From Bacteroidales bacterium (GTDB lineage: Bacteria; Bacteroidota; Bacteroidia; Bacteroidales; UBA932), in assembly GCA_017549145.1 (NCBI GenBank), contig JAFYVM010000021.1, forward strand, positions 1 through 42,426: DNA of 42,426 nt. The letters run 5' to 3'. The position numbers were made by a program, and so were the translations under genes. Under the pieces are notes generated by a model that worked only from the letters and a program-made list of their open reading frames with translations, ran no database searches and had not been told where the DNA came from. This document shows, one piece after another, positions 2,394-28,082 of the stretch (the first letter of the stretch is position 1; every line of letters begins with the position of its first letter).

Positions 2394-4523
2394 ATGATTT
2401 GTACCGTTATACATAATAAGAACTTCGAGCAGATCCTCGAGGCGTTGGAGCAGTGTGAGATGGCGGAGATCCGCTTGGACAGCTGTCGTATGTCTGCGCG
2501 TGAGATTCAGGAGTGCTTTTCTTCGGATGTGCCTTTGATTGCGACCTGTCGTTTGGCTGAGCTTATGGCTTCTGAACCTTCGCTTCAGGATGAGTCGATG
2601 ACGCAGCAGAGCCGTGAGATCAAGGCGGCGCAGATCGCGGAAAAGCGTCTGTGTCAGGCGATTGAGGCAGGTGCGCGATATGTGGATGTGGAGATTGAGG
2701 CGCCGAAGCAGATGTCGAAGAGAGTTCGCAATGTGGCCCATGAGAACGGTACAGTCTTCATTCGTTCATACCATGATTTCGAGGGTACAGCATCTGTGGA
2801 TGCGCTTAGAACCCTTGTGGTGAAGTGCCATTATCATGGTGCGGATATGGTAAAGGTTGCAACGATGGCTTCTTCGCAAGAGGATGCGGAGAGGGTGTTG
2901 TCGCTATATGAGTGGTGTGGTGGTATGCAGGGTACCGATATGGAAAACCTTGCAGATGGTGGCTTGATAGCATTCTGTATGGGTGAGGCAGGTCGCGAGT
3001 CTCGCTTGGAGTGTCTCCGTCGTGGTGCTCCGTTTACATATACAGCGCTGGATGGAGATGAGGCTGTGGCTCCTGGCCAATGGTCTATGTCCGAGATGAA
3101 GGCGGCAGTGTATGGTGAGGCCGGCCACAGATATCCTCAGCTGGATCCATTGTCGGTGCCATGTTCAAAGAGTTTTGCTCAGCGTGCGATCATTGCTGCA
3201 GCTTTGGCAGACGGCGTTTCGCATCTTAGAGGATATACGCCATGTGGTGATAATGAGGCGGCACTTGCTGTAGCTAGGGAACTTGGTGCAGATGTGCAAC
3301 TGGATGGAACAACAATTACAATCAAGGGTGTCGCAGCTTCGCGTGGTTTGTTATCTGCCTTGGGGGCAGGTGATCATGCTACAGTGCATGTGGGAGAGTC
3401 AGGCCTGTTGGCAAGGATGGTCATTCCTCTGATGGCTCAGCTTCATGAGGGACCGGTTGAGGTTACAGGTGAGAAGACTTTGCTTAAGCGTCCGCTTACT
3501 GGAGCACGTGAGATTCTGGAGGCTGTTGGGTGTGGGGTGAAGGAGATCCTTCGCTGCGCTCAGGATGACAGAGAGGATGCGGTGCGGATTCCATTGACTG
3601 TGGAGGGGCCGTTGAAGAGTGGCGGAAGAGTGGTGATAAGCGGCAAACATGGCTCACAACTCATTACAGGCCTGTTGATGGCGCTGTCTTTTGCAGAGAA
3701 GAATACAACTCTTGTGGTCAATGACCCTAAGAGCATACCATATATTTTCATTACCCTCGAGGTGCTTAAGAAGTTTGGAGTCAAGATCGGCAATGAGATG
3801 CTTGGCGGTCGCGATTTCCTGGAGTCCAATGGTGATTGGTCGCTTTGTACTGAGATGGTTTTCAAGGTGAGGGGAGGCCAGAGATTGAAGGCTACAGATA
3901 TCGACCTTGAGGGAGATTGGAGCGCTGCTGCTAACTTCCTCGTGGCGGGAGCAGTCTTCGGAAAGGTGGAGGTCGCAGGACTGGACACGACTTCGCTTCA
4001 GGCGGACCTTTCTATTATGGATATATTGATGGATGCCGGTGCAAGCTTGTCGCAGGTTGATGGAGCGAGGGGAAATATCGCTGTTCAGCGTGCTCCGCTC
4101 AGAGCATTCAATGTGGATGCGTCGAACTGCCCGGATCTTTTCCCAGTGATTTCAGTGCTGGCTGCATTCTGTCAGGGAACCAGCCGTATTGCGGGTCTTG
4201 GACGTTTGGCGAACAAAGAGAGTGACAGGGCAAAGGCAATCCTTGAAATGTTGAGTCAGATGGGTGTGGAGGCACATCGTAAGGATGATGAGTTGGTTGT
4301 CAAGGGATATTCACTTGTTCAGCGTCTGCTCGGACAATCCTCAGGTGAGTCATGCCAGCCAGGTCTGTTGAAGGGTGGAGAATATACATCGCACCATGAT
4401 CATAGAATGGTGATGGCGCTGAAGGTGGCATCTTTGGGAGCAGATGGCCCTATCGTCATTGATGATGAGGATTGTGTGGCAAAGTCGTTCCCATCGTTTA
4501 ATGAGCAGTTCTCGCTAATGTAA
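2394..4523 (+). CDS. aroDA: Fused type I 3-dehydroquinate dehydratase / EPSP synthase
   Basis: A 709-residue bifunctional enzyme. Residues 1 to about 215 are a type I dehydroquinate dehydratase: VDVEIEAPK holds the acidic residue, SYHDFEGT the catalytic His and VKVATMA the Schiff-base Lys. After a short linker, about 245-709 form EPSP synthase (shikimate-3-phosphate plus PEP). Visible EPSP motifs are CSKSFAQRA (Lys, Ser, Arg), HGSQLITGLLMAL, EGDWSAAANFL, CPDLFPVI (catalytic Asp), KESDRAKAI, HHDHRMVMA and CVAKSFPSF. All key residues are present, so both halves should be active. The intervening step (AroE) is not in this protein. Residues 384-392 (EILRCAQDD) come from an in-frame palindromic repeat. 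The gene follows aroB by 6 nt. No frameshift or internal stop is seen, so the fusion looks real. Confidence 0.95.
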   Translation: MICTVIHNKNFEQILEALEQCEMAEIRLDSCRMSAREIQECFSSDVPLIATCRLAELMASEPSLQDESMTQQSREIKAAQIAEKRLCQAIEAGARYVDVEIEAPKQMSKRVRNVAHENGTVFIRSYHDFEGTASVDALRTLVVKCHYHGADMVKVATMASSQEDAERVLSLYEWCGGMQGTDMENLADGGLIAFCMGEAGRESRLECLRRGAPFTYTALDGDEAVAPGQWSMSEMKAAVYGEAGHRYPQLDPLSVPCSKSFAQRAIIAAALADGVSHLRGYTPCGDNEAALAVARELGADVQLDGTTITIKGVAASRGLLSALGAGDHATVHVGESGLLARMVIPLMAQLHEGPVEVTGEKTLLKRPLTGAREILEAVGCGVKEILRCAQDDREDAVRIPLTVEGPLKSGGRVVISGKHGSQLITGLLMALSFAEKNTTLVVNDPKSIPYIFITLEVLKKFGVKIGNEMLGGRDFLESNGDWSLCTEMVFKVRGGQRLKATDIDLEGDWSAAANFLVAGAVFGKVEVAGLDTTSLQADLSIMDILMDAGASLSQVDGARGNIAVQRAPLRAFNVDASNCPDLFPVISVLAAFCQGTSRIAGLGRLANKESDRAKAILEMLSQMGVEAHRKDDELVVKGYSLVQRLLGQSSGESCQPGLLKGGEYTSHHDHRMVMALKVASLGADGPIVIDDEDCVAKSFPSFNEQFSLM
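3541..3570 (+). repeat. Dispersed palindromic repeat, copy 1, inside aroA
   Basis: Thirty bases identical at all but one position to 5131-5160. The core 21 bp (3546-3566) is an imperfect palindrome: ATCCT/AGGAT outer pairs, a 2-nt mismatch, then GC/GC. In this reading frame it encodes EILRCAQDD and keeps the frame open. The reverse complement of the core matches the repeat at 27677-27697 with few changes. Confidence 0.85.
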
Positions 4524-4556
4524 AATGCAATGCTCTGATTTATAGGGAGTTATGCG

Positions 4557-4608
4557 AACTACGTGCCGCCAAAGGGGAGCACGCACTTTGTGTAAGGGGT
4601 TGGTAGTT
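4557..4608. repeat. Nested inverted repeat between aroDA and aroC
   Basis: In the 108-bp gap, AACTAC (4557-4562) pairs with GTAGTT (4603-4608) and GTGC (4563-4566) with GCAC (4579-4582). The stems are short and there is no T-run, so it is not a terminator. It may be a small repeat element or a leader structure for aroC. Confidence 0.3.
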
Positions 4609-4631
4609 AATAGGTTACAAAATACGCAAAT

Positions 4632-5657
4632 ATGAATACGTTCGGAAGAAAGTTTAGAGTGACGATTTTTGGAGAGTCTCATGGTGAGGCAATCGGAGTG
4701 GTACTTGATGGAGTGCCTGCCGGTTTGGAGCTATGTGAGGCTGACTTTGAAAAGGATATACTTCGTCGCAAAAGCGGCTCGAAGGGTACCACTCCACGTA
4801 TCGAGTCAGACATGCCGCAGATCTTGAGCGGAGTGTTTGAGGGACATACTACTGGTGCGCCGCTCGCCATGCTCTTCCGTAATGAGAACACAAAGTCTCA
4901 GGACTACAGCCAGTTCGCAGCTAAGCCTCGTCCGGGCCATGCAGACCTGACCGCTGCACTCAGATGGGATGACTGTAATGACCCTCGTGGTGGCGGACAT
5001 TTTTCAGGCAGGATGACTCTTCCTGTGGTTGCAGCCGGAGTGGTTGCAAAGAAGATTCTGGCAGATGCTACTATCCTTGATGAGACTCCTTGCAGTGAGA
5101 TCAATGCGAGTATTGTAGAGCTCGGAGGAGAGGAGATCCTTCGCTGTGCTCAGGATGACATGTCAGCAGAGTGGCAGGAGGCAATTGAAAAGGCAGCAAA
5201 GGATGGTGATAGTCTTGGTGCAGTCGTGGAGTGCTGCGTTCCGAACATTGATCCGGGCTATGGAGAACCGTTCTGGGATAGCATTGAGTCACAGATTGCA
5301 CATGCTGTGTTTGCAATTCCTGGCGTTCGTGGAGTAGAGTTCGGAGATGGTTTCAAGGCTGCTGCCATGAGAGGCTCGGAGCATAATGATCCTATCGGTC
5401 CGGATGCGCGTCCGATTAAGAATGGTGCGGGCGGAGTGAATGGTGGCCTGACCAATGGTGCTCCTGTCGTATTCAGAGTAGCATTCAAACCAACATCGAG
5501 CATCAGTCGTGCTCAGCAGACCTTCAACTTTGAGACCGGCGAAATGGACACTCTCGAGATCAAAGGTCGCCACGATGTCTGCTATGCATTGCGTTGCCCA
5601 GTTGTCGTTGAGGCGATGACAGCAATCGTTCTTGCAGATTTCGCCCTCCTTCGTTAA
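4632..5657 (+). CDS. aroC: Chorismate synthase
   Basis: A 341-residue enzyme making chorismate from EPSP, the last step of the shikimate pathway; it needs reduced FMN. The N-terminal signature GESHGEAIGVVLDGVPAG, the RRKSG(S)KGTTPR region, RPGHAD, the DPRGGGHFSGRMT segment and the C-terminal KGRHDVC are all clear. It lies third in the operon, 108 bp after aroDA with no terminator between. Residues about 167-176 (EEILRCAQDD) are an in-frame copy of the same palindromic repeat found in aroA. They sit in a region between conserved blocks where chorismate synthases vary in length, so activity is probably kept. A strong terminator follows at 5682. Confidence 0.97.
   Translation: MNTFGRKFRVTIFGESHGEAIGVVLDGVPAGLELCEADFEKDILRRKSGSKGTTPRIESDMPQILSGVFEGHTTGAPLAMLFRNENTKSQDYSQFAAKPRPGHADLTAALRWDDCNDPRGGGHFSGRMTLPVVAAGVVAKKILADATILDETPCSEINASIVELGGEEILRCAQDDMSAEWQEAIEKAAKDGDSLGAVVECCVPNIDPGYGEPFWDSIESQIAHAVFAIPGVRGVEFGDGFKAAAMRGSEHNDPIGPDARPIKNGAGGVNGGLTNGAPVVFRVAFKPTSSISRAQQTFNFETGEMDTLEIKGRHDVCYALRCPVVVEAMTAIVLADFALLR
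5131..5160 (+). repeat. Dispersed palindromic repeat, copy 2, inside aroC
   Basis: Same 30-base unit as 3541-3570 with one C-to-T difference in the centre that is silent in the encoded peptide (TGC or TGT, Cys). It is read in the same frame in both genes and yields the identical peptide EILRCAQDD. The core palindrome is 5136-5156. Confidence 0.85.
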
Positions 5658-27672: not shown

Positions 27673-27700
27673 TGTTATCCTGAGCGAAGCGAAGGATTCA
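27673..27700 (-). repeat. Dispersed palindromic repeat, copy 3, after mdh
   Basis: Reverse orientation relative to the copies at 3541 and 5131. The 21-bp core (27677-27697) is the palindrome with GAAGC at its centre; it begins 6 nt after the mdh stop. No protein is affected here. Confidence 0.8.
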
Positions 27701-27976: not shown

Positions 27977-28000
27977 ACCCTCTCGCTAAAATATAATGGC

Positions 28001-28082
28001 TTGTCCACGAAATGGCACTTTGGGTGGACAATGTGTAAGAAAAGTGGTTACTTGTCCACGAAAAGTGGGTTTTAGTGGACAA
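28001..28082. repeat. Two 31-nt hairpins bounded by TTGTCCAC/GTGGACAA
   Basis: Unit 1 is 28001-28031 and unit 2 is 28052-28082. Each begins TTGTCCAC and ends GTGGACAA, with a 15-nt loop whose first four bases are GAAA; 20 nt separate them. Loops are otherwise different. They lie in the leader of the LolD-type gene. They look like a REP-type repeat pair or a duplicated operator. Confidence 0.75.

Follow-up and report, generated by a model that had tools for sequence, protein, structure and literature searches.

A 27-nucleotide palindromic repeat read in frame in aroA and aroC of a Bacteroidales bacterium is probably a non-autonomous, REP-like mobile element

Palindromic repeats lying in frame inside protein-coding genes are best known from Rickettsia. 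Here, we describe such a repeat from a stretch of 42,426 nucleotides (nt) of a Bacteroidales bacterium (UBA932; GenBank assembly GCA_017549145.1, contig JAFYVM010000021.1, positions 1 to 42,426 of the forward strand), the whole of which is called the window below. The repeat is a hairpin element of 27 nt, and copies of it are read as the same nine residues, EILRCAQDD, in the EPSP (5-enolpyruvylshikimate-3-phosphate) synthase AroA and in the chorismate synthase AroC. Its copies are dispersed over the genome, vary in number and in stem sequence between species, carry compensatory stem changes, lie in frame in many other proteins and, within genes, form arrays that keep the reading frame. The element is best explained as a non-autonomous mobile repeat of the repetitive extragenic palindromic (REP) kind, a reading that we consider probable.

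The aroA-aroC locus

In the window, a single open reading frame (ORF) encodes type I dehydroquinase and EPSP synthase as a fused protein and lies directly upstream of aroC (Table 1). The sequence-only reading of this DNA had described a 30-base unit in both genes, with one silent difference and a shared frame, and this was borne out: AGGAGATCCTTCGCTGCGCTCAGGATGACA lies at 3541-3570, and the same 30 bases with one T lie at 5131-5160, the change being silent because TGC and TGT both encode Cys. The length of the unit had to be revised, as the conserved element comprises only 27 nt and the left-hand AGG is no fixed part of the family. Read on the strand that carries TGTC, the loop is GCA in copy 1 and ACA in copy 2. 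The third copy proposed after mdh is also present, beginning 2 nt past the mdh stop codon, with a 25-mer match at 27674-27698 on the opposite strand. The 25-mer, with up to three mismatches, has three matches in the window against 0.00 expected (100 shuffles).

Table 1. Element copies and host genes in the window.
Feature	Positions	Strand	Description
Element copy 1	3544..3570	TGTC strand = minus	Plus-strand reading EILRCAQDD; in the EPSP synthase half of the aroD-aroA fusion
Element copy 2	5134..5160	TGTC strand = minus	Plus-strand reading EILRCAQDD; in chorismate synthase AroC
Element copy 3	27673..27699	+	Intergenic; diverged, with tag TGTT and tail TC
Host gene 1	2394..4523	+	Type I dehydroquinase (aroD) fused with EPSP synthase (aroA)
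Host gene 2	4632..5657	+	Chorismate synthase aroC

An Rfam scan of the window at the gathering threshold returned two tRNAs only. After the tRNA-Pro, at 28000-28082, a 32-nt sequence with palindromic ends is directly repeated, CTTGTCCACGAAA...GTGGACAA, the two copies being 78% identical.

Structure of the element

On the tag strand the consensus is 5'-TGTC-ATCCT-GA-GC-GNA-GC-GA-AGGAT-CT-3', and its predicted fold is a stem of seven Watson-Crick pairs (five plus two) with two G.A mismatches between them, or nine pairs if the mismatches are counted, closed by a loop of 3 nt. Of the 67 copies found in the genome (see below), 64 are tagged with TGTC and one with CGTC, and 61 have the tail CT. The first two stem positions are A-T in 65 and T-A in 66 copies, and the mismatches flanking the inner stem are G.A and A.G in 65 copies each. 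GNA loops occur in 58 copies (GAA 42, GCA 9, GGA 5, GTA 2), and the remaining loops are AAA (8) and ACA (1). The exact tip GCGNAGC is found in 41 of the 67, with a further 11 carrying a GNA loop on a C-G plus an A-T pair.

Two stem pairs show compensatory changes: pair 12-18 is GC in 52 copies and AT in 11, and pair 7-23 is CG in 61 and TA in 4. We extended this to 25 distinct forms from four genomes, obtained with a pattern that left the stem letters free and fixed the G.A and GNA letters; 97.1% of their cells are paired, and their covariation score is 0.338. Shuffled forms give 0.138, none of 500 being as high, and sliding the partners gives no more than 0.085. The forms of the own genome score 0.151 against 0.093 (0 of 500 shuffles as high).

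Tandem G.A pairs are stable in the context of a GNA-capped minihairpin. Minihairpins of DNA are reported to be extraordinarily stable when two or more G-C pairs carry a GNA loop, whichever base N is (PMC4686876).

Copies in the genome, the genus and the phylum

The genome assembly comprises 2,351,949 bases and is 83% complete. Searched with up to three mismatches, the 22-mer core has 67 copies genome-wide (34 forward, 33 reverse) and 0 when the pattern is read backwards, which confirms the over-representation that the sequence-only reading would lead one to expect. A covariance model, aligned from 23 of the 27 distinct forms, gave at least 92 matches at E<=0.001 among the 150 of 1524 candidates that were scored; as 150 candidates were scored per genome, its counts are lower bounds.

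Within the genus, the number of copies found with the same pattern ranges from 0 to 67 across species. There are none in G007, G010, G012, G013, G014, G018 and G020, several of which are incomplete genomes (G007, with an AroC 77% identical, is 61% complete). Among 41 genomes searched (25 of the genus, the own genome included, and 16 others of the order), 23 had a match, and the control had a single match, in G017. The outer stem is species-specific on a common core: ATCCT/AGGAT in the own genome, mainly ATTCT/AGAAT in G005, and ATTCC/GGAAT in G006, which has 52 copies. Across the phylum, the structural pattern occurs in 77 of 296 genomes, with up to 118 copies, the control being 0 among the genomes listed. 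A form of the element with one free loop base also occurs on 62 stretches of IMG/VR viral contigs (L205-L266), some of them on the same contig and some as inverted pairs.

These distributions bear on the idea that a cellular role, in transcript ending, mRNA stability or supercoiling, keeps the element in place and that the copies within genes are by-products. Copy 3 directly after the mdh stop codon would suit such a role, as would at least nine of the 67 copies that lie ahead of the first ATG of a long ORF; the spread from 0 to 67 copies among species of one genus, together with the patchy presence in the phylum, argues against any general role, and we regard this explanation as highly unlikely.

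Copies inside proteins

In the own genome, 19 copies lie inside 16 proteins. A copy was counted as genic when the longest ORF over it had at least 250 amino acids (aa) and the element lay at least 45 residues past the first ATG and at least 45 before the end. There were 32 copies in ORFs of at least 250 aa, of which 13 were excluded (L003, second copy; L007; L010; L011; L015; L073; L083; L084; L089; L093; L097, two copies; and L099), and the remaining 35 copies lie in shorter ORFs only, such as the 179-aa ORF at L006. The copy at L011 also falls in a 309-aa ORF of the opposite strand, 11 residues from its end. At L005, L016 and L025, two copies lie within one protein, 168-366 nt apart, mostly with adjoining hexapeptide units of the CHPE type.

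A Pfam family could be assigned to 15 of the 16 host proteins, the protein at L020 being retained in the count despite having no Pfam match. The families are diverse: DPP IV, cobalamin-dependent methionine synthase (MetH), PG_1098, M20 peptidase, a MutS-family protein, ArsP_2, an HI0933-like protein, a TsaD-family protein, ATP_bind_3, an FAD-dependent protein, aldehyde dehydrogenase, MurB, a Mur ligase-fold protein (whose best solved match is folylpolyglutamate synthase, FolC), AroA and AroC. Eight of the 16 were set against their best solved chain. At the element there are 15 extra residues in MurB, 13 in aldehyde dehydrogenase, 16-17 in the HI0933-like protein and about nine in MetH, where they fall in the linker ahead of the B12 domains; for DPP IV some 30 were estimated from the offsets of broken alignment stretches. 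A clean gain was not evident in three: AroA (about five residues), the FolC-like protein (two) and AroC, where the best solved chain itself has a longer loop.

Mapping the reading phase of the genic copies, a check proposed together with the sequence-only reading, revealed biased frame use: 14 of the 19 are read as the CHPERSEGS type (including CHPEQSEGS, CHPERSKGS and CHSERSEES), four as EILRCAQDD, one as VILSEAKDL and none as SFASLRMT (p ~1e-5 if the four open frames are taken to be equally used). In a post hoc observation, a TGC/TGT loop, which yields Cys, was found in all four EILR copies and in 10 of 67 copies overall.

One-sided tandem arrays

A further core lies within 32 nt on the tag side of 24 of the 67 copies and on the tail side of none. 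Aligned to the element, the 49 array units of these 24 loci retain positions 1-13 (78-100%) and have lost positions 14-25 (0-33%), such that each unit is the 5' half of the element up to the loop. The spacers between units are locus-specific, 4-8 nt long and 74% pyrimidine (38 spacers from 21 of the 24 array loci). At all eight genic loci, where arrays run in steps of 18 or 21 nt, the unit length is divisible by three, and the same holds for 5 of the 16 other loci (p 0.002, hand tally), which suggests selection for staying in frame. That the arrays end at the hairpin tip suggests stalled DNA synthesis and re-copying.

Clustering and the pair of neighbouring genes

With the genome taken as one line, 11 gaps between copies are at most 2 kb long against 3.7 expected (p 0.0002), and six are at most 500 nt against 0.9 expected (p 0.0004). 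Given this local clustering, the adjacency of aroA and aroC and the diversity of the 16 hosts, a second local landing explains the pair, and targeting of a pathway is not needed; the sequence-only impression of a repeat particular to two enzymes of one pathway was therefore not upheld.

The clustering, the arrays ending at the hairpin tip and the repeat-rich genomes that have no Y1 match (see below) also fit a spread without any transposase, by template switching or ectopic recombination at forks stalled by a very stable hairpin. Many copies are distant from others, however, and they end sharply, at AGATCC and GACA, between flanks that are unrelated; we hold this route to be unlikely as the means of dispersal.

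AroA and AroC loops in relatives

The sequence-only reading took the nine residues for an insertion between conserved blocks, and a clean gain is nearly what AroC displays: the interval from GG to W has 14 residues in the window against 6 in G007, the nearest insert-free relative, a net gain of about eight. For AroA this part of the claim fell, since its matching loop differs in length from one aligned relative to another and is, in net terms, only about three residues longer than that of L034, so that the AroA copy is not callable as a clean nine-residue insertion.

The named relatives L034, L035, L036, L038 and L042 suggest that the bacterium comes from rumen or gut. Several relatives carry repetitive sequence at the same places. 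The AroC of L034 (73% identity) has CTCAGGATGA in the matching loop, the AroC loops of L042 (G006) and L038 have VISSEVEKS and SVIPSEVEES in or beside them, and the AroA of L038 has a long repetitive insert in its matching loop; in G024 (L107), a different repeat (CAGGCCGGCAATGAC-like, with AGND peptides) occupies both the AroC and the AroA loop. CHSERSEES is found in a second loop of the L036 AroC. Judged by their likeness to frames seen in the own genome, VISSEVEKS, SVIPSEVEES and CHSERSEES would be translated REPs. The AroA and AroC loops thus look like recurrent landing places, and gaps and length variation in the alignments suggest that they lie at the protein surface. The second AroC loop, near residue 255, also carries inserts of some 30-60 residues in L126 (G003), L127 (G019), L125 (G017) and L036, and those of G003 and G019 are very rich in His, Cys and Gly, resembling a metal-binding stretch.

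It might be supposed that the peptide is of ancient origin and conserved in AroA and AroC, as the AroC loop is long in some distant chorismate synthases, or that the two copies match by chance. The full nine residues occur in none of the homologues aligned, and the core has 67 copies against 0 in the control; both ideas are refuted by this, and we give them practically no weight.

Search for a mobiliser

In the own genome, three matches to Y1_Tnp (one above the cut-off) and five to NF047646, a model of REP-associated transposases (none above the cut-off), together mark six places. Among three proteins tested, NF047646 matches two, with E values of 2.5e-9 and 1.7e-11, below the 80-bit cut-off, and matches below the cut-off are common across the genus. 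Those at L031, L033, L324, L325 and L326 (contigs C9, C71, C48, C72 and C43 of the own genome, G000) are Y1 proteins resembling REP-associated tyrosine transposases (RAYTs), in frames of approximately 290-360 residues, and those at L031 and L033 have a long C-terminal part beyond the core. None of the places lies in the window: no REP-type transposase was seen by eye among the listed ORFs of the window, which were not searched with models, and the Y1/RAYT matches of the genome are all on other contigs, in agreement with the sequence-only reading.

The search for a transposase suggested there thus found candidates, and these are not linked to the element by position. The motif is absent within 2.5-3.4 kb of all six own places (L031-L033, L324-L326) and at 22 further Y1/RAYT loci of relatives (20 distinct places), in a scan that recovers 60 of the 67 known copies and may therefore miss some. 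A loose scan of 26 Y1 loci in other repeat-rich genomes gave four matches, of which two are likely real copies, both in G248. In G320, with 50 copies, the sole Y1/RAYT match is weak and lies in a 37-residue frame.

These data can be set against the explanation that the host has a RAYT/TnpAREP (Y1 HUH) protein which specifically mobilises the element as its REP, as is thought for GTAG REPs. Besides the six places and the two NF047646 matches, genomes of the genus with more NF047646 matches tend to have more copies (25 genomes, Spearman 0.48, p 0.014, uncorrected for kinship), and TnpAREP binds single-stranded DNA hairpins by way of stem mismatches, loop and tag (PMC8266576). The lack of the motif at own and relatives' loci, the yield of only two likely copies from the 26 Y1 loci, the copy-rich genomes G045, G283 and G277 without a match, and a tag that is TGTC and not GTAG all point away from it. 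We see it as a possible explanation, and lean away from it.

Relation to known systems

A superfamily of CGTC-tagged REPs has been described from five phyla including Bacteroidetes, its mobiliser being left open in 2013 for CGTC and TGTC repeats alike (Di Nocera 2013, PMC3733652). The element shares with it a terminal tag of CGTC/TGTC type, a stem whose first two positions hold complementary A and T, copies within genes and the lack of a transposase beside the copies (only Y1/RAYT kinds were looked for here). It differs in its stem (five pairs, two G.A mismatches and two pairs, against 8-9 bp), in its predicted loop of 3 nt against 4-5 nt, and in its CT tail against mostly CCA; one-sided arrays of half-elements, which the element has, are unmentioned for CGTC REPs in the accessible portions of PMC3733652. 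With the tag and first stem pairs shared and the stem, loop and tail different, we do not file the element as a formal member of that superfamily.

The likeness to Rickettsia palindromic elements drawn by the sequence-only reading stands, when compared by description, in that both are dispersed palindromes lying in frame inside unrelated genes (PMC3733652, PMC10969869). The Rickettsia elements are about 150 bp long (PMC10969869) and the present one has 27 nt (nine residues), a separation made by description and not by sequence; arrays inside genes and a host of a different phylum further set it apart. REPtrons of GTAG REPs and RAYTs likewise involve a short hairpin whose stem contains mismatches and whose 5' tag is unpaired, and in-frame REP insertions are reported in tnpAREP genes of subclass 2.4 (PMC8266576, PMC6006769), whereas their tag is GTAG or GTGG and the element, tagged TGTC, adjoins no RAYT gene at the loci examined in the own genome and in relatives. 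Finally, the d(GCGNAGC) minihairpin has the identical 7-nt core, N being free, as 41 of the 67 copies, and in PMC4686876 it serves to stabilise synthetic aptamers, unlike the genomic element.

In the open-access literature, with subscription papers outside the search, we found no paper on the core DNA of the element or on its peptides; nor, with most subscription papers outside the search, did we find a link between the minihairpin and REPs or a description of the minihairpin core and of the one-sided arrays that keep the frame. The element works like REPs and Rickettsia palindromic elements, as a short palindromic mobile repeat tolerated in frame. Its kind, that of invading in-frame repeats, is known; the one-sided tandem arrays go beyond it.

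Proposed mode of spread

The reading that we consider probable joins three proposals: spread as single-stranded DNA, survival in permissive loops, and arrays driven by stalling. The element would spread in single-stranded form, folded on its GC-GNA-GC minihairpin and processed in trans by some single-strand nuclease or transposase, and would land between and within genes, often close to an earlier copy. Purifying selection would purge most landings within genes, leaving copies that add a whole number of codons to a variable loop or linker and offer a readable polar frame, the CHPERSEGS type being the commonest and SFASLRMT unseen. The copies in aroA and aroC would be two such survivors in neighbouring genes. 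The stable minihairpin may further stall DNA synthesis, with the nascent strand re-copying the stretch that precedes the tip, and re-copying before the tip would explain why arrays consist of 5' halves and lie on the tag side only.

Several results weigh against this reading. As for mobility, three genomes rich in copies have neither a Y1 nor a RAYT match: G045 (a single contig, 99% complete, 34 copies), G283 (33) and G277 (15). No filled site could be compared with an empty one at the DNA level, the relatives being too diverged, and no target duplication, which a MITE would have along with terminal inverted repeats, could be read. A replication-strand bias, as a sign of insertion on the lagging strand, found no support: among 70 elements, found by either pattern in 40 stretches and the window, 37 agree with the GC skew of their 20-kb stretch (p 0.72); 43 of 70 agree with the AT skew (p 0.07), and adjacent copies agree in 30 of 49 cases (permutation p 0.07).

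As for the fold, the loop is other than GNA in 9 of 67 copies, and the folding energy is unexceptional against shuffles (z -0.84 as DNA, -1.65 as RNA); we assume here that the energy tables undervalue GNA and tandem G.A motifs. Two of the five covariation measures, those of double-change pairs and of further pair types, fail against shuffles for the 25 forms (96 and 85 of 500 as high), and the pair-type measure also fails for the own-genome forms (500 of 500). The G.A and GNA letters were fixed in the search pattern, so that their constancy is not testable by the 25 forms. As for frames and arrays, the tests were devised after the data had been seen, three ORFs in the SFASLRMT frame were excluded as the element lies before their first ATG, and the tip-boundary model does not account for array positions 26-27, which agree with the head at 65% and 51%.

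A bolder version may be put forward tentatively. The unit of selection might be an extra-stable DNA minihairpin of natural origin, with GC-GNA-GC beneath tandem sheared G.A pairs, acting as a self-spreading generator of protein insertions. It would seed permissive loops in core enzymes, stalled replication would then grow one-sided, frame-compatible tandem repeats at those places, and a bacterial lineage would thereby lengthen the loops of its housekeeping proteins continually, all with no dedicated transposase.

Implications

Repeat-rich genomes exist both with and without HUH-Y1 matches, which makes the question of the mobiliser testable. A load of repeats similar to that of Rickettsia is carried by core enzymes of a Bacteroidales species, and related species have it, along with repeats of other kinds, in the corresponding loops of AroC and AroA. 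The sharp, one-sided arrays offer a testable link from a DNA minihairpin to the birth of minisatellites.

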